A stretch of 64,000 bases of DNA from contig NZ_FWXJ01000004.1 in NCBI RefSeq assembly GCF_900176405.1, forward strand, positions 1-64,000, read 5' to 3'. Position 1 is the first letter of the stretch, and the number at the start of each line of letters is the position of its first letter. Source of the DNA: Polynucleobacter kasalickyi (lineage in GTDB: Bacteria > Pseudomonadota > Gammaproteobacteria > Burkholderiales > Burkholderiaceae). A program made the translations under genes and the position numbers. This document shows positions 26,562 through 52,819 of this stretch, one piece after another. A model generated the notes under the pieces. It worked only from the letters and a program-made list of their open reading frames with translations. It was not told where the DNA came from and did no database searches.

Positions 26562-27593
26562 ATGTCTAAACCATCAAAACTTCATCGTCTCATTGCTACC
26601 GTAACTAAAGATGTTATGGAGCATCCCAATGACTTAACCCGTCATTACATGGCTGAATTAGGTATTTCACGCGTTGCCGCAAATAACTATATTAATCAGT
26701 TGGAGGAGCAGGGGTGGATTGCTCGAAGTGGCCCATCTACAAGGCCAGTTTTTAGTCTTGGGTATAAAAGACATGTATCAAAACTTTATGAGATCGATAG
26801 TCTTGAGGAGGACATTGTTTGGATAAAAGACTTTAGGCCGTACTTTAATCTTTCACAAAATGTTTTGAACATTGTAAATCACGGTTTTACAGAGATGCTC
26901 AATAATGCCATTGACCACTCTGGTGGAGGTGAGGTTTTTATTTGGGCTCGTCAAACAGAAACACGTTTTACCTTGGCGATATCTGACAATGGAATTGGCA
27001 TATTTGCAAAAATCGCTTCTGCTCTTAAATTGCCAGATATGCGGCAAGCTCTTTTTGAATTGTCAAAGGGCAAATTTACAACTGACCCAAGTAGACATAG
27101 TGGTGAAGGCGTATTTTTTACTTCTAGGATGTTTGATTGGTTTGAAATAAATGCAAACAATTTAGAGTTTCACCATGATAATAAATTTGAAGAGGATGTA
27201 TTACACGAGGCTAAAGGGATATTTCCGGATGGTACAGTCGTATTTATGAGTATTGCTCTCAACAGTACAAGAACAACGGCTGATATATACGCAGAATACA
27301 CAAATGCTCCCGATGATTTTGATTTTTCTAAAACTGTTGTACCAATGAAGTTGGCTCAATATGGGGAGGAGCATTTGGTTTCAAGATCACAAGCTAAAAG
27401 GCTGATAGCCAGATTTGACAGGTTCAAAAAGGTTGTGCTTAATTTTGATGAAGTACAGGAAATAGGTCAGGCCTTTGCGGATGAAATTTTTAGGGTTTAC
27501 GCTAATAAACACCCTGACGTTGAACTAATCCCAAAAAATATGACTAAGCAAGTTGAAAAGATGTGGTTGAGAGCTGTAGCCCCAAGGATATAA
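26562..27593 (+). CDS. wHTH - HATPase - DUF4325 (STAS-like) regulatory protein
   Basis: A 343-residue cytosolic protein. Residues about 5-60 form a helix-turn-helix (DLTRHYMAELGISRVAANNYI). A GHKL ATPase follows: N-box EMLNNAIDH (111-119), G1 box SDNGIGIF (141-148) and G2 box SGEGVFF (180-186). The C-terminal part from about 275 (SRSQAKRLIARFDRFKKVVL, then FDEVQEIGQAFADEIF) looks like DUF4325, a STAS-like domain. It has no His phosphorylation helix, so it is not a classical sensor kinase; an anti-sigma-type switch in one chain is possible. ATG at 26562 is chosen (GGAAA upstream). It stands alone between large gaps. Confidence 0.75.
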   Translation: MSKPSKLHRLIATVTKDVMEHPNDLTRHYMAELGISRVAANNYINQLEEQGWIARSGPSTRPVFSLGYKRHVSKLYEIDSLEEDIVWIKDFRPYFNLSQNVLNIVNHGFTEMLNNAIDHSGGGEVFIWARQTETRFTLAISDNGIGIFAKIASALKLPDMRQALFELSKGKFTTDPSRHSGEGVFFTSRMFDWFEINANNLEFHHDNKFEEDVLHEAKGIFPDGTVVFMSIALNSTRTTADIYAEYTNAPDDFDFSKTVVPMKLAQYGEEHLVSRSQAKRLIARFDRFKKVVLNFDEVQEIGQAFADEIFRVYANKHPDVELIPKNMTKQVEKMWLRAVAPRI

Positions 27594-28052
27594 GATTTTG
27601 TTATGCTCCCCACGAACTCTTTTATTGCAGATCGTGTTTATTGGTGGATGATTTCGTTTATTTAAATGTGGAGTTTATAGGATCCAATTTCGTGGATTGT
27701 GGGTTCAAATTTGCAATTGATTCATAAGTGCAAAAATTTTTTAATTAGTACCAAGCTACTTGATCTTAATAAGTTAAAAAATTCTCCAGGCTGAGTGCTG
27801 AAGAGGAGATGCTTATTAAAAGTAAAAGGAAAGCCAATATTTTGGAAAAAACCATTGGATTTATTGTGACCAACCTTTATCCAGAGTCTTTCAAAACTAG
27901 TTGAGTTGAACTAGTAATTGTTAAATTATTGAATTCATCAGAATCTCAATAGATCTGTGTCTATTGTTAAAACTCAGAAAACCTATTTAAAAGTTTGTGT
28001 CAATTAAAACACTTAATAAAAAAGTGAAATTGTTACGTTTTGCTCGAGATTG
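27594..28052. other. AT-rich gene-free gap with possible IS remnant
   Basis: About 460 bp with no convincing gene. A 31-codon ORF at 27809 has its purine-rich ribosome site touching the ATG, which argues against translation. The stretch 27701-27733 resembles an IS30-type end (separate entry). Confidence 0.5.
27701..27733 (+). repeat. Possible solo IS30-like terminal sequence
   Basis: Read on the minus strand it is TTTGCACTTATGAATC, then ATTTGAACCC. This shares TTGCACTT...TTGAA(T/C)CC with the IS30 end at 73-94, but with a longer middle. No transposase remnant is next to it. Confidence 0.22.
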
Positions 28053-28087
28053 ATATTGACAGTAACATTAATTACTGTCAATATAAC
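28053..28087 (+). promoter_or_regulatory. MerR-type promoter: perfect palindrome between -35 and -10 boxes 20 bp apart
   Basis: ATATTGACAGTAA (28053-28065) and its exact reverse complement (28072-28084) flank a 6-nt CATTAA centre. Within this, TTGACA (28056-28061) is a perfect -35 box and TATAAC (28082-28087) a 5/6 -10 box. The spacer is 20 bp, the over-long geometry typical of MerR-controlled promoters. It ends 43 bp before the MerR-type gene, so autoregulation is the simple reading. Confidence 0.72.
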
Positions 28088-28130
28088 ACCATTCACTGTA
28101 TTTTAAGCTGACAACACAATAAAGAAACAT

Positions 28131-28997
28131 ATGGGCTATTTTATTGAATCAAATCTAGACTTTGTCGGAAATTCCGAAGATTTGGCTAGGGTGGCAACAA
28201 TTGCTGCACAAGGGCTTTTTCTACCAGGTGATCATGACAAAATTAATGAAAGATTGATTCGTTACTATGTAACTGAGGGCTTAGTAACTCGTCCTAAACG
28301 GATTGGTCGCGATGCCGAGTATGGATATCTTCAACTGTTACAGTTTTTAGCAAGTCGATTTTTGGTAGAGCAGGGTTACCCCCTTGCGAAAGTAGCACCC
28401 TATATTCAAGCATTAGAAAATAAGCAATTAGAGGACTTGGTTGTTCAGCAACATAAACCGAATCTCGCCGAGTTATTAGTTGCCGCCTATCAAACCCCAT
28501 CATTAAAATTGAGGCAATCTAGGCTCTCCGATGAGAAAAAAATTAGCCCGCCAAAGCGCTCCCTTAAAGATTTTTTAGATGACGAAGAAAATGCAGAAAC
28601 ATTAATCCAGCATCAAAAGAAATTCTTCATTTCTGAAAACCAAGGCCAGAAGGAGAAGTCCTTACGCGAAGTGAACGCATTTAACCTAACAACGCTTGAA
28701 GTTTCGATTCAAGAAATCAATAAAAAGATGTTTCAACTCAAAGAACAGTTATATCGTCAACAAAAGGAAAGTCAGTTGGAAATGCGTCATTTACAACAGG
28801 CAATCGATCAAATTCAGTACTCAATAAGTCAAGTTCTAGAAACATCGAATCAAAGATTGTTGAACTTCATGATGGAATTCAAGAAAAATGAACAGAGACA
28901 GGCTCAAGAAATAAGCCTGCTGGCTGAGAAAATCAAATTAATAGAACAGAATTCTTTGCAAAAGAATACTCAACGCAGTGCCGGAGATGACAAATGA
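28131..28997 (+). CDS. MerR-type HTH regulator with long C-terminal coiled coil
   Basis: A 288-residue protein. Residues about 35-95 form a MerR-like winged helix (NERLIRYYVTEGLVTRPKR, then EYGYLQLLQFLASRFLVEQG with a downstream helix). Residues about 185-275 are charged heptad-like helix (EINKKMFQLKEQLYRQQKES and on), probably for dimerisation or partner binding. There is no metal-binding cysteine set, so it is not a metal sensor of the classic kind. The gene lies behind a MerR-type promoter and 236 bp before the VWA gene. The signal is unknown. Confidence 0.75.
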   Translation: MGYFIESNLDFVGNSEDLARVATIAAQGLFLPGDHDKINERLIRYYVTEGLVTRPKRIGRDAEYGYLQLLQFLASRFLVEQGYPLAKVAPYIQALENKQLEDLVVQQHKPNLAELLVAAYQTPSLKLRQSRLSDEKKISPPKRSLKDFLDDEENAETLIQHQKKFFISENQGQKEKSLREVNAFNLTTLEVSIQEINKKMFQLKEQLYRQQKESQLEMRHLQQAIDQIQYSISQVLETSNQRLLNFMMEFKKNEQRQAQEISLLAEKIKLIEQNSLQKNTQRSAGDDK

Positions 28998-29134
28998 TGA
29001 ATCACCGAAGATGACCACTAGCGAAAATGAGTGCTAAGTAAAGGTGTTATCCCAATAACCCTTGTGTAACTTGAAGTAAATAAACGCTTTAGAGATTTAC
29101 AGGTACCAGTAAAAAATAATTAGGTAATTAAAAA

Positions 29135-29152
29135 TTGACTAGCAATAGTCAA
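29135..29152 (+). promoter_or_regulatory. Inverted repeat upstream of the VWA gene
   Basis: TTGACTA-GCAA-TAGTCAA, 7-bp arms, 82 bp before the VWA start. It shares the outer TTGAC...GTCAA half-sites with the palindrome before the MerR gene, so the same regulator may bind both. Confidence 0.45.
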
Positions 29153-29233
29153 GGGGATTTTTTTACCTTAAAAAGTAGTTGAAATTTCACCTCAGTAATG
29201 AAGTTATTTAAAACTCTGTAAGGAAATGAAAAG

Positions 29234-30559
29234 ATGTCAAATCAAAATATTTTTGACGTAATCGTCAACACTCGCAAGGAAGTCATCACCAATTCAATGG
29301 ATTCGCTGGATATTTTATTACGTATCCGCGCCAATGAAACAGCAAAGGCAAAGCGAACTCCACTCGCTATATCCATCGTAATTGATCGATCTGGCTCTAT
29401 GTCTAATGGCAGATTAGAAGAGGCGAAGCGATGTTCCCTTGAATTACTAAATCGATTAGAAGATACCGACAAGATTTCGGTCGTTATATACGATTCAACG
29501 GTTCATGTTTTATTAGAATTAATGAATGTCAATATAGCAAAATCAATCTTACCAAACAAGCTAAGAAAAGTTGATACAGGAGGTTGTACTGATTTGCATG
29601 GCGGCTGGTTAAAAGGTGCAGAAACCTTAGCACCTTTAACAAATAACGATTATGTTTGTAGGGTCATCTTGCTCTCAGATGGTCAAGCAAATGAAGGTTT
29701 GATTAATGAAGATGCAATCGCTGCTCAAGTAAAAGACTTGGCATTAGCCGGAGTGACAACGACAACTGTTGGTATTGGTGAGGGATTCAATGAATCGCTC
29801 ATGACAAAAATGGCCAACGCTGGCCAAGGCAATGCTTGGTATGGGCAGCGCGTTGAAGATCTTAAAGAATCTTTTGAAGCGGAAATTAGTTATTTAAGTC
29901 ATATCATTTGGAAAAATGTCAGAGTAGAAATATCTAGAAACTTGATGCAAGTAAAAGTTCATAATGATTACATTAAAAATGAGCATCAACAGTATTGTTT
30001 ACCCTCTATTGCCATTGGTTCAGAAGTTTGGTTAGCGGTATCGATTCCAATGATTGAGGTGGGGGTGCTGCAGGCGAATGGTAAAAATGTAGATTTTAAT
30101 ATTTGTGCGATTGATGCAGATGATGTTGAACATGCTATGACTGTTCAATTGCCAATCTTAGAGATTGTGAGCCAATCTGAATATTACCAAGCCAGTAGTA
30201 ATCCGATGGTAGTGCAACGTTATCAAGAAATTGAAATTGCAGATATTCAGAAAGAGATCAATCGCTATGTGGAGCGTCGTGATTGGGTTCGTGTAGATAG
30301 CATGATGCAAAATCTACGAGAGCGAGCAAAAGATAACCCTTGGTTAGAAAATACCATCAAGTATATCCAAAAATTAGTCGATCAACGTGACTATAACTCA
30401 GCCAGCAAAGAGCTTCAATACTCTATTCGATTAATGAAAAATCGATTAACAGAGCGAGATGAACAGATGTTTGAAAATAGAAGCTTTGAAGAGAGCAAGC
30501 CACAATTCTTGAGGAGAAAATCTGCGCAAGGAAGAAACAGTCAATCACAAGAGGAATAA
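29234..30559 (+). CDS. VWA-domain protein with intact MIDAS
   Basis: A 441-residue cytosolic protein with no signal peptide. A von Willebrand A domain at about residues 42-215 has the full metal site: DRSGS (Asp51, Ser53, Ser55), GGCTD (Thr119) and LSDGQ (Asp149). A beta-rich part follows to about 330, then a helical, charged tail (YVERRDWVRVDSMMQNLRER and on). Such proteins usually act as scaffolds or substrate adaptors. AAGGAAA lies upstream. It sits between the MerR-type gene and an ADP-ribosylglycohydrolase gene. No MoxR ATPase, the usual VWA partner, is present. Confidence 0.85.
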   Translation: MSNQNIFDVIVNTRKEVITNSMDSLDILLRIRANETAKAKRTPLAISIVIDRSGSMSNGRLEEAKRCSLELLNRLEDTDKISVVIYDSTVHVLLELMNVNIAKSILPNKLRKVDTGGCTDLHGGWLKGAETLAPLTNNDYVCRVILLSDGQANEGLINEDAIAAQVKDLALAGVTTTTVGIGEGFNESLMTKMANAGQGNAWYGQRVEDLKESFEAEISYLSHIIWKNVRVEISRNLMQVKVHNDYIKNEHQQYCLPSIAIGSEVWLAVSIPMIEVGVLQANGKNVDFNICAIDADDVEHAMTVQLPILEIVSQSEYYQASSNPMVVQRYQEIEIADIQKEINRYVERRDWVRVDSMMQNLRERAKDNPWLENTIKYIQKLVDQRDYNSASKELQYSIRLMKNRLTERDEQMFENRSFEESKPQFLRRKSAQGRNSQSQEE

Positions 30560-30600
30560 ATGTTGCGGTTGCAACGAAGTGTGATGCGTTAAAAAATGGG

Positions 30601-30635
30601 AGAAGGTCTTATCAGATTAAAAAATAAGGCCTTCT
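30601..30635 (+). terminator. Hairpin after the VWA gene
   Basis: A 12-bp stem with one G-U pair (AGAAGGTCTTAT with ATAAGGCCTTCT) around an 11-nt loop, 41 bp after the stop. No T run follows, so intrinsic termination is uncertain. Confidence 0.5.
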
Positions 30636-31126
30636 AACGATACATTCTTAAGAAAAATCTTCGGATGAATAAAAAAATAATTAACTTTGACATCAACACT
30701 ATAAAAATCTACCGAAACTTTTAAAGTTAAATAATGGTTTGATTTAAGCTCATTATTTGATCTTGAAGAATTTTAAAATTGAATGAATAGCTTCTGATTA
30801 AGCCCATACTATTGATACAGCATATTTAAAAATATTGAAGTCATGCTGTTATTCGTAATGCTTTGTTTAAACATGAAGAAAGTACATTAAATGCTGAACC
30901 TATATTAATACTTTTAGGTGGTATTTTGATTGATAATCAGAAATATGTTAATTAAATTAGTACTGATGATTTTTAAAAATTGAAGAATAAATGCTTAACA
31001 ACATAACTCAGTTTTTTCATAGTCTTACTAGTGAAAATGAAAAAATACTAATCAATCAAAATTGCATGACATGTAAAAATTCCACTATCAATTAAAACCA
31101 ATAAAAAATATAAATTTGGAAAATAT
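30636..31126. other. Very AT-rich gap, nothing recognised
   Basis: About 490 bp with stops in all frames and only scattered ORFs under 35 codons. No repeat, promoter or RNA gene could be supported. The ADP-ribosylglycohydrolase gene at its end has only a weak GGAAA ribosome site. Confidence 0.5.
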
Positions 31127-32113
31127 ATGAGCAAAAAAATGCAAATTGCATTAGGTGCAATTAAGGGCGCTTTAATTGGTGATGCCGCGGGCTCTGTGAT
31201 GGAGTTTAAGTTTTTAGATCGTCTCCCCAATGACTCAGATGTCGTTAATGCACTTTCTTTAAATGGGGGAGGAGTCTTTAGACTTGCCCCCGGACAAATT
31301 ACAGATGATGGGGAGTTAACGCTCAGCCTTTTGAATTCATTGCGGCAACATCATGGAATATATGTTTCCGATATCGTTGCACATCATTACCTGATGTGGA
31401 TTGATTCAAAACCATTTGATGTGGGTCGGGCAATTAGTGCTGCTCTTTATGTGCACAAAGATCAAAGAAAAATTGATGGATTAGCTAGCGCCCTGCAAAA
31501 GCGAGCACTCCAATTTAATTCTGACTCCAAGGCAAATGGTTGTTTAATGAGAGCAACTCCATTGGGAGTGGCGGCATTTAATATGACAATAGAGAATGCC
31601 ATCAAAATGGTTAAGACAGATGTCAGAATGACCCATCCTCATCTTGATTGTCAGGATGCAACTGTGGCCTATGTTTTGGCGATTCGCCATCTGATGTTTT
31701 TTCCTGAGGATCATCTCGGAGCGGTAACCGTAGCCAAGGACTATTTAACAGATAACAATCCTGATGTGAAATCTTGGTTAGATGCAGCGCTTGAAGGAAA
31801 CTTACCGCAAGCATTTCCTCTGGATGGATTTATTAAAAATGCATTTTCTTATGCTTTTTATCATCTCTCTCAAAACGCTGCCTATGAATTTGCTCTTGCA
31901 GATACTCTAAAGCGTGGAGGAGATACAGATACTAATGCCTGTATTGTTGGCGGTTTGATAGGAGCACTTCGGGGGATTAAACAAATTCCATCTGAGATGG
32001 TCGAAAAGTTAGTGAACTGTGATGTGAAAACAGGGCTAAAGCCAAGAGGTGACAATTTTCATCCGAAAAACGTACAATCCTGGTTACATTTCGTCCCGAC
32101 AGAAGAGAGCTGA
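31127..32113 (+). CDS. ADP-ribosylglycohydrolase family protein (DraG/ARH type)
   Basis: A 328-residue hydrolase expected to remove ADP-ribose from protein or nucleic acid, or to act on a related ADP-ribose compound. Family marks are IGDAAGSVMEF near residue 17, the first metal motif ITDDGELTL (Asp60, Asp61), and the second GGDTDTNACIVGGLIGALRG (Asp266, Asp268, Thr269). All metal ligands appear present, so it should be active. No ADP-ribosyltransferase gene was seen nearby, and no dinitrogenase reductase, which argues against a DraG role in nitrogen fixation. Confidence 0.9.
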   Translation: MSKKMQIALGAIKGALIGDAAGSVMEFKFLDRLPNDSDVVNALSLNGGGVFRLAPGQITDDGELTLSLLNSLRQHHGIYVSDIVAHHYLMWIDSKPFDVGRAISAALYVHKDQRKIDGLASALQKRALQFNSDSKANGCLMRATPLGVAAFNMTIENAIKMVKTDVRMTHPHLDCQDATVAYVLAIRHLMFFPEDHLGAVTVAKDYLTDNNPDVKSWLDAALEGNLPQAFPLDGFIKNAFSYAFYHLSQNAAYEFALADTLKRGGDTDTNACIVGGLIGALRGIKQIPSEMVEKLVNCDVKTGLKPRGDNFHPKNVQSWLHFVPTEES

Positions 32114-32184: not shown

Positions 32185-33099
32185 TTAGTAACTACCTGGA
32201 ATGATACCTGGTGGCAAGCTATAACAGTAATCAGAGATATCCGATGGTTTAGTCACCCACACACGGTCGATATTTGGATGGTTTAAGCAATGCTTTAATG
32301 CCAAACGAAGATTACGTAATCTAAAGGGTTGACCAAATACGTATGGGTGAATGGAGATATTCATCACTAGAGGATGAGCAATACATTGCTCGATCATTTC
32401 ATCAAACTGATCAACAATCATGTCACAAAAATCAGTCGCATCTTGTTTACGATGAATAATAACCTGAGAGTCATTCAGTTCAATTGGATACGGAATTGAT
32501 AGGATGGGGCCACTTCTTGTCTTGATCCAAATGGGTTGATCATCCATTGGCCAGTCCATTAAATACTGAAACCCCGCCTCCTTTAGCAAGTCTGGGGTAA
32601 AAGATGTTTCATAGGCACCTGCCCCCATCCAACCTTTGGGAGCGACACCTTCATGCTTGATAAAAGTATCGACGACTTCTTGAATAATTCTTTGTTCATC
32701 GGCTTGCCACATTCCACGGAGATTTTCCGCGTTAGTGCGACCATGCGCGACAAATTCATCACCACGATTACGAATAGCTGTCATGACCTGAGGTGCATAT
32801 TCATATAACAAACTATTTACGTTGTGTCCGACTGGAATGCCAAGTTCATCAAATAATTCGAAGAAACGCCAAATACCAATGCGGTTCCCATAGTCACGCC
32901 ATGAATAATTTCGATGGGTTTGTGGCTCACCTGTTTTGGCTGGATCATGTCCAAGGCCCGCACCAAATGCAAAGCATTCCACATTCGTAGTGATCGTAAA
33001 AGCTAAACGCTTCCCACCTGGCCAACTATAGTCTTTGCGCTCAGTGAGTGGAACATAATCGTAACGATTGTGTTTAGGTAAGAGTGGTAATGAATTCAT
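32185..33099 (-). CDS. Polysaccharide deacetylase-family protein (PuuE/allantoinase-like)
   Basis: A 304-residue NodB-fold hydrolase. The N-terminal block GGKRLAFTITTNVECF, then NSLLYEYAPQVMTAIRNRGDEFVAHGRTN, and a late SIHPYVFGQPFRLR fit the PuuE group, whose members hydrolyse cyclic amides such as allantoin rather than polysaccharides. There is no signal peptide, in agreement with a cytosolic small-molecule enzyme. A Bug receptor gene lies 9 bp upstream on the same strand, so receptor and enzyme form a two-gene operon and may share a substrate. Confidence 0.85.
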   Translation of the reverse strand: MNSLPLLPKHNRYDYVPLTERKDYSWPGGKRLAFTITTNVECFAFGAGLGHDPAKTGEPQTHRNYSWRDYGNRIGIWRFFELFDELGIPVGHNVNSLLYEYAPQVMTAIRNRGDEFVAHGRTNAENLRGMWQADEQRIIQEVVDTFIKHEGVAPKGWMGAGAYETSFTPDLLKEAGFQYLMDWPMDDQPIWIKTRSGPILSIPYPIELNDSQVIIHRKQDATDFCDMIVDQFDEMIEQCIAHPLVMNISIHPYVFGQPFRLRNLRLALKHCLNHPNIDRVWVTKPSDISDYCYSLPPGIIPGSY

Positions 33100-48578: not shown

Positions 48579-49472
48579 TTAACTTGCTTGTCTTTTTTCT
48601 ACAGTATTTGCTTCAATTTCGTAAAATTCTGTCAGGCTGATGATGTCTTCCACATCCTGACGCGCCGTCACAAATTCAGCATTCGATAAACCTGTATATT
48701 GTCCAGTCTCACGTAGCTCACTTAACATTTGCTTCATAAAGTGAAATGCACTACACAACACTACTTGGGCTTCAATACAAGCAACATATCCCATTTCAAT
48801 GAGTTCTTGACGACTAAACAAAGGTCTACCATCTCGATTGCCACGACTTTGTACATAAATCAGCGGGATTTTGCAGCGTTTGGGTGCTTGAACTGCATCA
48901 TCTAAATTTCGAGGAAATAACAAACCCAAATCTGCCCCTACATCAGCTGCTGCGTTAATTCGAAAAACTGCTTCGTCTAAGCCCGCTGAGCGACAAGTAT
49001 CTGTCCTTGCAATAATTACAAAATTTGGATCTAACCGATCTCTTTCTTTACAAGCGTAAGAAATTTTTTCGATATATTCTTCTCTAGAAATTCCATGAAC
49101 AACGTACTTGTGATAATGTGCGCGCTTTGGAAATACTTGGTCTTCTATGTGGATACCAGCTACCCCGGCACGAATAAATTCACTAACGGTTCGCATGGTA
49201 TGAAGTGAATCACCCCAGCCTGCCCCAGCGTCTGCGATGAGCGGAATATTGACTTTGCCAGTAATGTCTTGAGCCATTTTGACTTGTTCGGTCATTGTCA
49301 TTAAAGGCTCAGTAATTGCTGACGCAGCTCCAGAGACATAGCCTCCAATAAATACTGCTTCGAATCCAAGTGACTCAACTAGTCTTCCTTGTAATGGATC
49401 TGAAACAGAGGGTAAGTGTAGAAAGGTTTTCTTTTCAAGCAGCTTACGCAATTGCAAAGTTGTATTTGACAT
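48579..49472 (-). CDS. Isocitrate lyase/PEP mutase-superfamily protein
   Basis: A 297-residue TIM-barrel protein. It has GGYVSGAASAITEP, VNIPLIADAGAGWGD, GIHIEDQVFPKRAHYHK and VIIARTDTCRSAGLDEA. Relatives include methylisocitrate lyase, oxaloacetate decarboxylase and dimethylmalate lyase. Two departures are seen. The KKCGH loop of true lyases is PKRAHYH, without Cys, and the Asp-x-Asp metal pair is Asp-Ala-Gly. The reaction is therefore uncertain. First gene of the operon with the LigI-like hydrolase. Confidence 0.85.
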   Translation of the reverse strand: MSNTTLQLRKLLEKKTFLHLPSVSDPLQGRLVESLGFEAVFIGGYVSGAASAITEPLMTMTEQVKMAQDITGKVNIPLIADAGAGWGDSLHTMRTVSEFIRAGVAGIHIEDQVFPKRAHYHKYVVHGISREEYIEKISYACKERDRLDPNFVIIARTDTCRSAGLDEAVFRINAAADVGADLGLLFPRNLDDAVQAPKRCKIPLIYVQSRGNRDGRPLFSRQELIEMGYVACIEAQVVLCSAFHFMKQMLSELRETGQYTGLSNAEFVTARQDVEDIISLTEFYEIEANTVEKRQAS

Positions 49473-49537
49473 AGTGTGTATTTTGAATATTAATTATTTT
49501 TTAAATAAAGCCTTAAGAACTTAGTCTTTATGAAAAG

Positions 49538-49951
49538 TTATTTAATCGGCGAAAATTCAGTTGGTTCCATAAATACGGACTGTGTCTTAACGACAATCGG
49601 GCCATTTGCCATCGAGGCTTCTCGTGCAGCCATCCACTCGGGGTCTTTTTGAAAAGCTTCCCAATTTTTTTTCGCCTGTTCGCGACTTGCATGCGAAACG
49701 ATATAAATTAAGGTATTAGGTTGATCGGTTGGTATCCAATAACCGATATTAGTGATACCGTGTCTTTCAAAAAAACGTGTAGTATGATTTTTAAAGCGTG
49801 CAACTACATCGCCCAATCTATTTTCGTGACTAGTGTAGGTTCTAAGTTCAAAGACGCGTTGTTGGTTGCTGGTTTGTGCAAATACGCTTGTAGAAGTCAG
49901 TGCAGAAATGCACAGACTAATGCTAAGTAATACCTTTAAAAGTGATTTCAT
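49538..49951 (-). CDS. NIPSNAP-family protein with signal peptide
   Basis: A 137-residue protein. A cleavable signal (about 1-25, LTSTSVFAQTS) is followed by a single ferredoxin-like NIPSNAP domain: VFELRTYTSHENRLGDVVAR, FFERHGITNIGYWIP and REQAKKNWEAFQKDPEW. The domain's function is unknown, and export to the periplasm is unusual but seen in relatives. It stands upstream of the PEP-mutase-family gene on the same strand, 65 bp away, so co-transcription is possible. Confidence 0.85.
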   Translation of the reverse strand: MKSLLKVLLSISLCISALTSTSVFAQTSNQQRVFELRTYTSHENRLGDVVARFKNHTTRFFERHGITNIGYWIPTDQPNTLIYIVSHASREQAKKNWEAFQKDPEWMAAREASMANGPIVVKTQSVFMEPTEFSPIK

Positions 49952-50020
49952 AATCTGTTGTCTCCAGAAAAATTGTTTTATTTATTTTTACAACTCAATC
50001 CATTCTAACGAAAAATTAAC

Positions 50021-50440
50021 ATGATGGGCATTTATCGAGCATTCAAAGAGTACGTTAATAAAATAATTCGATTTAGTAAATTTAAGGTGTATGTCTTATG
50101 GTTCGCCTTAAAAAGCCCGCATACCCCTAAATTTATTAAATTTTTTGGATTTATCGTTCTTGTTTATGTATTAAGTCCAATTGATTTAATTCCTGACTTT
50201 ATCCCGATACTTGGATATTTGGATGAATTAGTTTTAGTGACCATGATGGTAAGTCTTTGCCTCTATTTTATTCCTGTGGATGTAATGGATGAATCCATTG
50301 GGATGGCTAAAGATCTCATTCAAAAACAACAGCGTTTACCGAAACAGACTTTAGGCATCTTCCTCATTTTAATGATTTGGGTTGGGGTTATTTGGTATAT
50401 CGCCAGCCAAACGAATGCTCTAGAATATTTCAATAAATAA
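50021..50440 (+). CDS. YkvA-family (DUF1232) membrane protein
   Basis: A 139-residue inner-membrane protein. The DUF1232 core is VYVLSPIDLIPDFIPILGYLDELVLV (in parts), with hydrophobic segments at about residues 43-58, 65-90 and 118-135. Function unknown; relatives are small and widely distributed. It ends 18 bp before the TonB-receptor start and may be co-transcribed with it. Confidence 0.85.
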   Translation: MMGIYRAFKEYVNKIIRFSKFKVYVLWFALKSPHTPKFIKFFGFIVLVYVLSPIDLIPDFIPILGYLDELVLVTMMVSLCLYFIPVDVMDESIGMAKDLIQKQQRLPKQTLGIFLILMIWVGVIWYIASQTNALEYFNK

Positions 50441-50458
50441 AAATTGATGGAGGCTCGT

Positions 50459-52798
50459 TTGATACAACCTAAAAATGATGGTGATGATTTTTCTTTGCCT
50501 GAATTAAGGCTTAAGCCAATTTTTTTGCTGTTATCGATGTTGCCAATCTTGGCTCAAGCACAATCTCTTTCTAATCCCCAATTCGTGCCTCAGCAAAGCT
50601 TGCCTCAGATTGATATTATTGCGACTACCCCAATGGGTAGTTCAGGCATTCCCCTAGATCGATTTGCAGGCAATGCCCAAATTATTGGGAACAAAGATAT
50701 TTCCATAGACTCTATTAGTGTTGCGGAGACTTTAAATGATCAAGGAAATTCCATCTTTATCAACGATACCCAAGGTAACCCTTTTCATGTGGACTTAAAC
50801 TATCGTGGTTTTACCGCCGCTCCGACTCTAGGGACTCCGCAAGGACTATCTGTATTTTTAGATGGCATCCGTATGAATGAACCCTTTGGTGATGTCATGG
50901 CTTGGGATTTAATCCCACATATCGCCATCGCCAACTTATCTTTAATTCCAGGGTCAAATCCCGTATACGGTATTAATACCTTGGGTGGTGCAATTGCATT
51001 AGAGACCAAATCAGGTTTTAGTTATACACAAAATGAAGCCAAGGTATCAACGGGTTCTTATGGACGTGCCTCATTGGATGCGCAAACAGGGGGTAATAGT
51101 GATGGCAATGCCTATTATTTAGGCTTCACGAGCTTCAATGAAGATGGTTGGGCCATGAATACACGTAGTCAGATTAGACAAGCTTTTACCAAGTTTAGTC
51201 ATCGCAGTGAAGATGTTGGATTAGATGTCTCGATGATGTATTCGGATAACAATCTACGAGGAAATCAAACAGTCCCCTTATCAAATCAAAATCAAGCTGA
51301 ATTAGGTTACAGTCATCCGGACTATATGAGTAGTCAAAACTTGATGTTGAATGTAAAAGGAACTTTTAATGTAGATACTTTTAACAATGTTGAAGCCTCT
51401 GTTTATTATCGAAAAATTAATCGAAGCATGTTCAATAGTAATATTTTTGCCTGGCTAAAAGATCCAGCAACCAACAATACTGAAAATTGTTATCTGACGG
51501 TAGACTGTCCCGCATCTAATATCTTAACTAGTGTTTCTCAAAATATTGTAGGTATGAACTTTGAGTGGTCGAATAATCAGCCCATCGGGGAGTTGAATCA
51601 AGTGTTTACGATTGGCGGAAACTTGGAGTATGGCAATACTGCGATGTCCAATTTAGGTCAAAATTCATTTATTAACACTCAAAATAATAACGAGTCAATT
51701 GGCCTTGGGCCTCAACTTGCCCAAGCACAAATTGATTCAAAGAATCAACGTTTTGGCATGTACCTAGCAGACATTATTAGTCTGAACGATTCGCTGAACC
51801 TGAATGTATCGGCAAGATATGATTATGCAAAAATTAGTTTAAGTGGCGCTTCCTGTACAGATGTCAATTTATGTAATAACTTAGAATTGATTCCTGGCGT
51901 AAACAATGGCGTGAGTGATGTTTCAGGCACGCATACCTACCAAAGAATTAATCCGGCGGTTGGTTTGAATTACCAAGTGAATCCAGCGCTTACAACTTTT
52001 ATCAGTTACTCCGAGGGCTTTAGAACCCCATCGGCCATTGAGCTTGCTTGCGCAGATAGTTTGAATCCTTGTAGTGGGATTCCCAATTCATTTGCTAGCG
52101 ATCCAGAATTAAAGGCAGTAGTTTCTAGAACAATAGAAATTGGCTTTAGAGGCAAAGTTTCTGATGCTTTGTCCTGGCGTGCTGCAGTTTTTAATAGCGA
52201 CCTAACCGATGACATCATTTTTAATCAAACCAATGCGAATCAAGGATATTTTGCCAACGTAGGCAGTACCCGTCGAAGTGGGTTAGAAATAGGTTTTAAT
52301 GGTAATCAACAAAAGTGGGATTATGCGGTAACCGGGAGTTATGTCGATGCAACTTTTCAAAGCCCTTTTAATCCAGCGAACGCCAATAATAGTAGTTGTA
52401 TTGCGCAAGGCGGTTGCAGTGCTGTGAATGTTCAGCCAGGAGCGCATATCCCTAATATTCCGGCACTGATGTTCAAGGCAAAACTTTCCTATCAATTCGC
52501 CCCTTCTACTAAATTGAGTACACAGATTCTTGCGCAGGGCCCTTCTTATGCAAGAGGCGATGAAACGAATACAGATATCAATGGACAGGTACCAGGCTAT
52601 ATGGTTGCGAAGTTATCAGCAACGCATCAATTAGATAAACATTTGATGTTGTTTGGTAGTGTCAATAATTTATTAGATCATCGGTATTCTAATTTTGGAA
52701 ATTTAGCGACCAATAATATTGGTAGTGGCAATGCAGAGCAATTTCGTAGTTTTTCATCTGGTCGGAGTATCGTACTAGGTATTAATGGAAAATTTTAA
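50459..52798 (+). CDS. TonB-dependent outer-membrane receptor
   Basis: A receptor of about 780 residues. An N-terminal signal (LLLSMLPILAQAQS) precedes the plug domain (VAETLNDQGNSIFINDTQGN, GLSVFLDGIRMNEPFGDVMA, GINTLGGAIALETKSG), and a 22-strand-type barrel ends in the outer-membrane signature IVLGINGKF. TTG at 50459 is preferred because GGAGG (50449-50453) precedes it by five bases; ATG at 50447 is the alternative and would put that site inside the gene. Position before PQQ dehydrogenase genes suggests uptake of a metal complex, perhaps a lanthanide, as inference. Confidence 0.9.
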   Translation: MIQPKNDGDDFSLPELRLKPIFLLLSMLPILAQAQSLSNPQFVPQQSLPQIDIIATTPMGSSGIPLDRFAGNAQIIGNKDISIDSISVAETLNDQGNSIFINDTQGNPFHVDLNYRGFTAAPTLGTPQGLSVFLDGIRMNEPFGDVMAWDLIPHIAIANLSLIPGSNPVYGINTLGGAIALETKSGFSYTQNEAKVSTGSYGRASLDAQTGGNSDGNAYYLGFTSFNEDGWAMNTRSQIRQAFTKFSHRSEDVGLDVSMMYSDNNLRGNQTVPLSNQNQAELGYSHPDYMSSQNLMLNVKGTFNVDTFNNVEASVYYRKINRSMFNSNIFAWLKDPATNNTENCYLTVDCPASNILTSVSQNIVGMNFEWSNNQPIGELNQVFTIGGNLEYGNTAMSNLGQNSFINTQNNNESIGLGPQLAQAQIDSKNQRFGMYLADIISLNDSLNLNVSARYDYAKISLSGASCTDVNLCNNLELIPGVNNGVSDVSGTHTYQRINPAVGLNYQVNPALTTFISYSEGFRTPSAIELACADSLNPCSGIPNSFASDPELKAVVSRTIEIGFRGKVSDALSWRAAVFNSDLTDDIIFNQTNANQGYFANVGSTRRSGLEIGFNGNQQKWDYAVTGSYVDATFQSPFNPANANNSSCIAQGGCSAVNVQPGAHIPNIPALMFKAKLSYQFAPSTKLSTQILAQGPSYARGDETNTDINGQVPGYMVAKLSATHQLDKHLMLFGSVNNLLDHRYSNFGNLATNNIGSGNAEQFRSFSSGRSIVLGINGKF

Positions 52799-52819
52799 AA
52801 CCCTTACTTGGAAGTTCCC

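Follow-up and report, generated by a model that had tools for sequence, protein, structure and literature searches.

Four genes follow one another on the same strand in an AT-rich part of the Polynucleobacter kasalickyi genome, and the question they raise is whether they form one system. They lie in a stretch of 64,000 nucleotides (hereafter the window), which is the first 64000 bases of contig NZ_FWXJ01000004.1 in an assembly of 2.91 Mb in 37 contigs, and encode a protein with HATPase and DUF4325 domains, a MerR-like helix-turn-helix (HTH) protein, a vWA protein and an ADP-ribosylglycohydrolase (ADPRH) (Table 1). The initial annotation had suggested that a regulator, a scaffold and an eraser of ADP-ribose act together here. 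Part of that proposal stands, as the MerR-like and vWA genes are paired in six phyla and domains acting on ADP-ribose accompany this pair (4/18 loci, vs 0/62 loci lacking the MerR gene); part does not, as the ADPRH gene is adjacent in a single clade of four species and the HATPase-DUF4325 gene drops out. Because the MerR-vWA pair spans six phyla and has an ADP-ribose domain next to it or fused with it in several instances, the three remaining genes likely constitute a switchable ADP-ribose-clearing system. That they work as one regulated module, with control by MerR, an ArnB-like adaptor and removal of ADP-ribose at the targets, we regard as an evenly balanced proposition.

Table 1. Features of the locus (window coordinates)
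Feature	Position	Strand	Remarks
wHTH-HATPase-DUF4325 protein	26562..27593	+	not in module; lineage-specific insertion
Perfect inverted repeat, predicted MerR operator	28053..28084	.	13-nt arms, 6-nt spacer
MerR-like HTH protein, 288 aa	28131..28997	+	HTH at residues ~13-99; predicted C-terminal helix of ~108 residues (176-283)
Conserved non-coding MerR-vWA spacer, 236 bp	28998..29233	+	holds TTGAC-N8-GTCAA dyad
vWA protein, 441 aa	29234..30559	+	vWA domain with MIDAS, beta-sandwich, C-terminal helix bundle
ADP-ribosylglycohydrolase (ADPRH), 328 aa	31127..32113	+	PF03747, metal motifs present

A MerR-like gene and a vWA gene form a conserved pair

Among the 186 genomes of our genus comparison set, the MerR-like gene is present in 8 (E 1e-8), each time with an adjoining vWA gene, and the vWA gene is present in 23 (Fisher test, p = 1.6e-8; kinship is uncorrected in this and the other Fisher tests on the genus). 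In the genus, 15 further genomes with vWA gave no MerR match, several of their vWA genes being broken or at contig ends. The two genes often overlap or abut, the overlap being 8 bp in G120, G495 and G435 on maps of the longest open reading frames (ORFs). Such maps, made by script for the early loci and the genus synteny, are poor in high-GC genomes, and profiles were therefore run over all frames.

A search with a vWA alignment, which found matches where a single vWA protein (P0003) run against genome contigs had found none, gave 428 confirmed candidates, the best 80 of which were fetched as loci of named genomes, many of them metagenome bins. A MerR-like gene stands directly upstream of the vWA gene in 18 of these best 80 loci. 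Judging from record titles, the pair occurs in Alpha-/Betaproteobacteria, Verrucomicrobiota, Cyanobacteriota, Chloroflexota, Acidobacteriota and Deinococcota, some families being presumably of the phylum in which we place them. Plasmids carry it as well: it is found in six of the seven plasmid regions examined, chosen among 43 records with a match (Synechocystis, Picosynechococcus, Cyanobacterium, Meiothermus and two Deinococcus), and is lacking from that of D. ficus; a plasmid search with the protein query P0001 gave no match. The MerR-vWA pair is well supported as a conserved unit across six phyla. We found no description of it in the open-licence literature searched.

The vWA protein is predicted to have the three-domain architecture of ArnB with an intact metal ion-dependent adhesion site (MIDAS), and the pieces of that motif, reported as intact from the start, are in place at residues 51 (DRSGS), 115 (TGGCTDLHGG) and 146 (LLSDG). 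A C-terminal tail, PxFLRRKxxQGR, is kept in most relatives. The gene was detected in 13/399 genomes of the order (E 1e-25) and is rare, since only 4/398 genomes of a phylum sample have it (E 1e-50; G000 is among them); no match to it was found in phages. Copies are broken or partial in G017, G019, G475 and G442 (loci L030, L033, L167 and L169), which suggests repeated decay of the gene within the genus.

Two plasmid loci have further genes behind the pair. In Deinococcus deserti (L239:3872-6493) a dual-specificity-type phosphatase gene follows, an echo of the phosphatases of the ARG-centred systems discussed below, and in Picosynechococcus (L236:4267-6927) a nucleotidyltransferase-DUF86 pair, which we take to be of toxin-antitoxin type.

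A predicted operator upstream of the MerR-like gene

The HTH of the MerR-like protein passes the Pfam cut-off (MerR_1, 25.9 vs 21.6 bits), and 46 bases before its start codon ends a perfect inverted repeat with the core TTGACA-N14-TGTCAA (28056-28081). A spacer of 19-20 bp is a hallmark of MerR-type promoters, and in the window as in G463, G556 and G524 the repeat overlaps a long-spacer promoter, TTGACA-N20-TATAAC; other MerR-vWA loci have 17-bp promoter spacers or no dyad. The sequence TGACA-N14-TGTCA lies upstream of the MerR gene in 8/10 betaproteobacterial MerR-vWA loci, namely in the window, G463, G556, G495, G435 and G524, and outside the genus in G120 and L044, where start codons are estimates. 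It is absent from the 600 bp upstream of all nine vWA loci without MerR that were surveyed (0/9), and in the 526,634 bp of locus sequence retrieved, most of it from the genus, all six copies stand at MerR promoters (6/6). The arrangement goes beyond chance: the pair is found well outside the window, and the dyad is conserved within Betaproteobacteria.

This distribution suggests that the MerR-like protein may bind the dyad and set the level of the operon. It might instead be a protein partner of the CbpM type that does not bind DNA, the dyad then belonging to another regulator, a reading that we find quite improbable in view of the HTH score and of the six dyads at MerR promoters. A wider regulon of the MerR-like protein was considered and dropped: when one mismatch is allowed, dyads occur as often as a control pattern (8 vs 7 per strand).

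The spacer between the MerR-like and vWA genes is itself conserved. It is 80.6-81.8% identical to that of three relatives, vs 70-71% of nucleotides for the adjoining genes (34-40% at fourfold sites), and among the 186 genomes it is matched nearly in full only in 4 species of the window's clade. None of its frames stays open in the relatives as it does in the window, there is no Rfam match above the cut-off, its folding is not unusual (z -0.89) and covariation is absent in four sequences. It may serve as a leader, as a promoter or as both.

In species without MerR, the vWA gene has a different conserved 5' leader of ~110 nt that reaches the start codon (L156:8075-8215, L029:9016-9154, L035, L036, L155, L157, L168, L030 and L169). 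One of its hairpins masks the ribosome-binding site (z of -2.7, -1.6 and -4.4 for the three leaders that were folded), and there is an alternative hairpin too; covariation is slight (1/33 pairs), and six loci searched gave no Rfam match at gathering. The vWA gene would thus appear to have its expression controlled in either case, by one means or the other.

Domains acting on ADP-ribose accompany the pair at some loci

The vWA protein of Synechocystis plasmid pSYSA, slr7060, ends in a Macro domain (1.8e-38), and its MerR gene overlaps upstream. In Trueperaceae (L095) the MerR-paired vWA protein is also fused to Macro, and in two Chloroflexota loci (L066 and L074) an ADPRH gene follows the MerR-vWA pair, that of L066 being Tri1/DraG-like (350.9 bits to Tri1, below the cut-off of 490). 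The 120 relatives of slr7060 listed of 1,486 have a Macro domain (PF01661), in a search whose query is itself the fusion and so favours fusions. Counting ADPRH or Macro domains that are fused or within 3 kb, 4/18 MerR-positive loci have one vs 0/62 MerR-negative loci (p = 0.0019, on mutually related loci; in the MerR-negative L049 and L112 the domain is farther away than 3 kb). A link between ADP-ribose and the MerR-vWA pair is on this comparative evidence probable.

The Synechocystis genes (L235:5339-9354, i.e. pSYSA 48790-52805) have csx2 and RAMP-type CRISPR genes downstream.

Within the genus, ADPRH is present in 10/186 genomes, six of which have vWA, always within 5 kb (6/10; Fisher test, p = 2.8e-4). 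The two genes adjoin in four species and are ~4.6 kb apart in G542 and G574. When 15 syntenic proteins are compared with G463, the MerR-like, vWA and ADPRH proteins are the three least conserved (63-73% vs 83-99%); silent-site identity is low (25-43%) for the module genes and likewise for the two flanking genes in which it was determined.

As to the enzyme itself, the metal motifs that had been called intact are present, as TDDG (59) and GGDTDTN (264). TDDT is the common motif of the ADPRH family, and DraG has TDDT where the window protein reads TDDG. The nearest sequences in the PDB are those of DraG (2woc, 6.4e-21). No ADP-ribosyltransferase or sirtuin was found by Pfam in the four genes (E up to 1) or in ten flanking genes (E up to 1e-8). 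A genome-wide search for DRAT gave no match and was equally silent in control genomes, and so has no bearing on nitrogenase control of the DraG/DraT kind. In phages, 35 records hold an ADPRH, all at <60% identity (27-29% in the eight listed).

Two genes or three

The pair might be a functional two-gene switch like ArnA-ArnB, with an unrelated ADPRH, used perhaps in the salvage of nucleotides or ADP-ribose, and with the other cases as independent uses of a general adaptor. We hold this to be a possible, if tentative, explanation. It agrees with the frequency of the pair (18/80 loci, vs 2 with an adjacent ADPRH), with the poor conservation of the vWA-ADPRH spacer and with the catabolic surroundings of the locus. 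A related ADPRH (48% identity) in G541, a genome without vWA, fits a metabolic role because its neighbour is a sugar-type ABC transporter. The two-gene switch sits badly, however, with the fusion of paired vWA proteins to ADP-ribose domains in two phyla, with the enrichment of such domains at loci that have the pair, and with the fast protein evolution that the window ADPRH shares with its two neighbours.

The G541 enzyme also belongs among the observations that weigh against a single three-gene module, and there are several others. Most vWA loci (62/80) have no MerR neighbour, and 14 of the 18 MerR-vWA loci have no ADP-ribose domain nearby. The adjacent ADPRH, in the order MerR-vWA-ADPRH, is confined to a single clade of the genus, and this linkage may be plain inheritance, as the surrounding region is also syntenic in those species. 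The 567 bp between vWA and ADPRH are 37-41% conserved and contain no copy of the dyad. The window ADPRH scores 93.3 bits against the DraG model TIGR02662 (cut-off 337) and 55.5 against the Tri1 model NF041672 (cut-off 490). Of the wider examples, L066 and L074 are closely related (93% identity between their vWA proteins), and the search profile was seeded with their ADPRHs among others, both being also matched by the window ADPRH alone; in L055 other ORFs stand between MerR and the Macro gene ~1.75 kb upstream of it. The predicted operator has limits of its own: the exact dyad is missing in G494 (which has one form with a mismatch) and in G244, and it was seen at none of the 22 testable MerR-vWA loci outside Betaproteobacteria, plasmids included (the sequence of L091 was too short upstream to be judged); the operator is thus no feature of the pair across phyla. 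No second exact dyad was found in the window genome, and hence no wider MerR regulon is seen.

The HATPase-DUF4325 gene does not belong to the proposed module

The row had been presented as four genes, and a four-gene stress module that includes the HATPase-DUF4325 protein would agree with their being consecutive and on the same strand. The place of the first gene in the row is not conserved, though. Two relatives, G463 and G556, keep the order of the cyanase gene, MerR, vWA, ADPRH and the gene at 32185-33099, and where the window has the HATPase-DUF4325 gene, their opposite strand carries an ORF of 119-123 aa instead (DUF1810 by Pfam in G556). G544 also keeps the other three; its contig stops inside MerR, so that the upstream side is not visible, and a genome-wide search found no HATPase-DUF4325 copy in it. 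Across the genus the gene is present in 25/186 genomes, and 2/25 of these carriers have vWA, vs 23/186 overall (Fisher test, p = 0.85). Copies that are 88% identical occur in G492 and G493, with other neighbours in G493. The gene is sporadic and probably mobile. We rejected it as a module member, given that G463 and G556 lack it in this position and that 2/25 carriers have vWA; the predicted co-occurrence of "these four" fails because this one gene does not belong, and a four-gene module is scarcely credible. The HTH of the protein is weak (MarR_2, 17.5 bits, below the cut-off of 27).

A possible mechanism and its relation to known systems

If the three genes work together, the MerR-type regulator would bind the dyad and control the operon, and its long coiled coil could sense the state of the vWA partner, coupling the adaptor to transcription. 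The MIDAS of the vWA protein would hold a peptide of a modified protein, making it a metal-dependent peptide-binding adaptor that brings ADPRH to modified targets, where this enzyme, or a Macro domain elsewhere, would remove the ADP-ribose. Tags set by phages or by the transferases of rivals would, as the trigger, fit the published ARG-centred model; a role of the module in defence is speculative.

The closest published idea is that of the ARG-centred systems. As described in the section devoted to them in PMC9503650 (3.8), they would by prediction reverse ADP-ribosylation of viral origin; they have a vWA protein as predicted peptide-binding chaperone, a Nudix- or WYL-HTH regulator in >42% and a coupled phosphatase in a little over 55% of cases. 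The window resembles them, as that section presents them, in having an ADPRH with no ADP-ribosyltransferase next to it in the genes scanned, a vWA gene, an HTH regulator and fast evolution; the MerR-vWA loci also share with them Macro as an accompanying domain. The vWA domain with its MIDAS answers to the chaperone described there, peptide binding being its predicted role. The regulator, in contrast, is a MerR protein with a coiled coil and neither Nudix nor WYL, no phosphatase is among the window genes scanned, and here the constant core consists of vWA and MerR, the ADP-ribose enzyme being the variable part. The pair itself is not described in that section.

ArnA and ArnB, regulators of the archaellum and of the response to DNA damage, offer a likeness in build, in the portions of PMC6509490, PMC12852372 and PMC10470591 that treat them: a three-domain protein of vWA, beta-sandwich and helix bundle, a MIDAS and a regulatory partner. 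That partner is here a MerR-coiled-coil protein, whereas ArnA is a zinc finger-FHA protein; phosphorylation of the helix bundle is a further mark of the Arn system, and no FHA or Ser/Thr kinase domain is among the window genes scanned. One might speculate that MerR-vWA is an unrecognised cross-phylum counterpart of ArnA-ArnB, whose ancestral job concerned ADP-ribosylated proteins: an adaptor of the ArnB/Sec23-24 type with an exchangeable eraser (ADPRH or Macro), its occupancy being read by MerR to switch the operon on, as immunity against ADP-ribosylating phages or toxins. So broad a reading we consider unlikely.

In the part of PMC10989914 that concerns it, slr7060 is a YfbK-like vWA protein and is raised as a possible regulator of RNase III; MerR is not mentioned there. 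It shares with the window a MerR gene directly upstream, and differs in that a fused Macro domain (YmdB-like) replaces the separate ADPRH. From DraG and Tri1, with which it shares PF03747, the window ADPRH differs by scores far below both NCBIfam cut-offs. The ternary conflict systems of MoxR and vWA, in the part of PMC7159879 that presents them, likewise have a vWA with intact MIDAS as the proposed peptide binder; the window differs in having no MoxR AAA+ gene among the genes scanned. A distant vWA relative in G052 (L032:8575-13436), 34% identical over the vWA domain, has no MerR; behind it stand a two-component pair and a MoxR-type AAA+ gene.

Most of the means by which bacteria would counter the ADP-ribosylation imposed by phages or rivals are predictions, as is stated for the ARG-centred systems in PMC9503650. 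The present locus adds a compact example of three genes, for which an operator is predicted, whose adaptor can be folded and whose enzyme can be checked, and the genes SGL_RS00905 and slr7060 of Synechocystis, a laboratory cyanobacterium, give the same pair, Macro-fused, beside CRISPR genes. The MerR-vWA pair links bacterial vWA proteins of ArnB/Sec23-24 build to a partner of DNA-binding type, which would make recognition by the adaptor directly testable.

Setting of the locus

Several other descriptive statements of the initial annotation were borne out. All four ORFs are intact, and the gaps, given as 236-567 bp, measure 537, 236 and 567 bp. Besides MerR_1, four more domains exceed their Pfam cut-offs (HATPase_c 28.7, DUF4325 53, VWA 58 and ADP_ribosyl_GH 167.6 bits); a PADLOC scan gave weak scores only. 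The surroundings are indeed ordinary, as 9/10 flanking genes scanned belong to transport or catabolic families (Pfam, E 1e-8), including GMC oxidoreductase, NMT1/ABC transport, cyanate lyase, TctC, Fer2, molybdopterin subunits and LysR; the gene at 32185-33099 has no family match at that threshold. The GC content per kb is 0.33-0.39 at 26-32 kb vs 0.38-0.47 elsewhere in the window, save its first kb (0.333).

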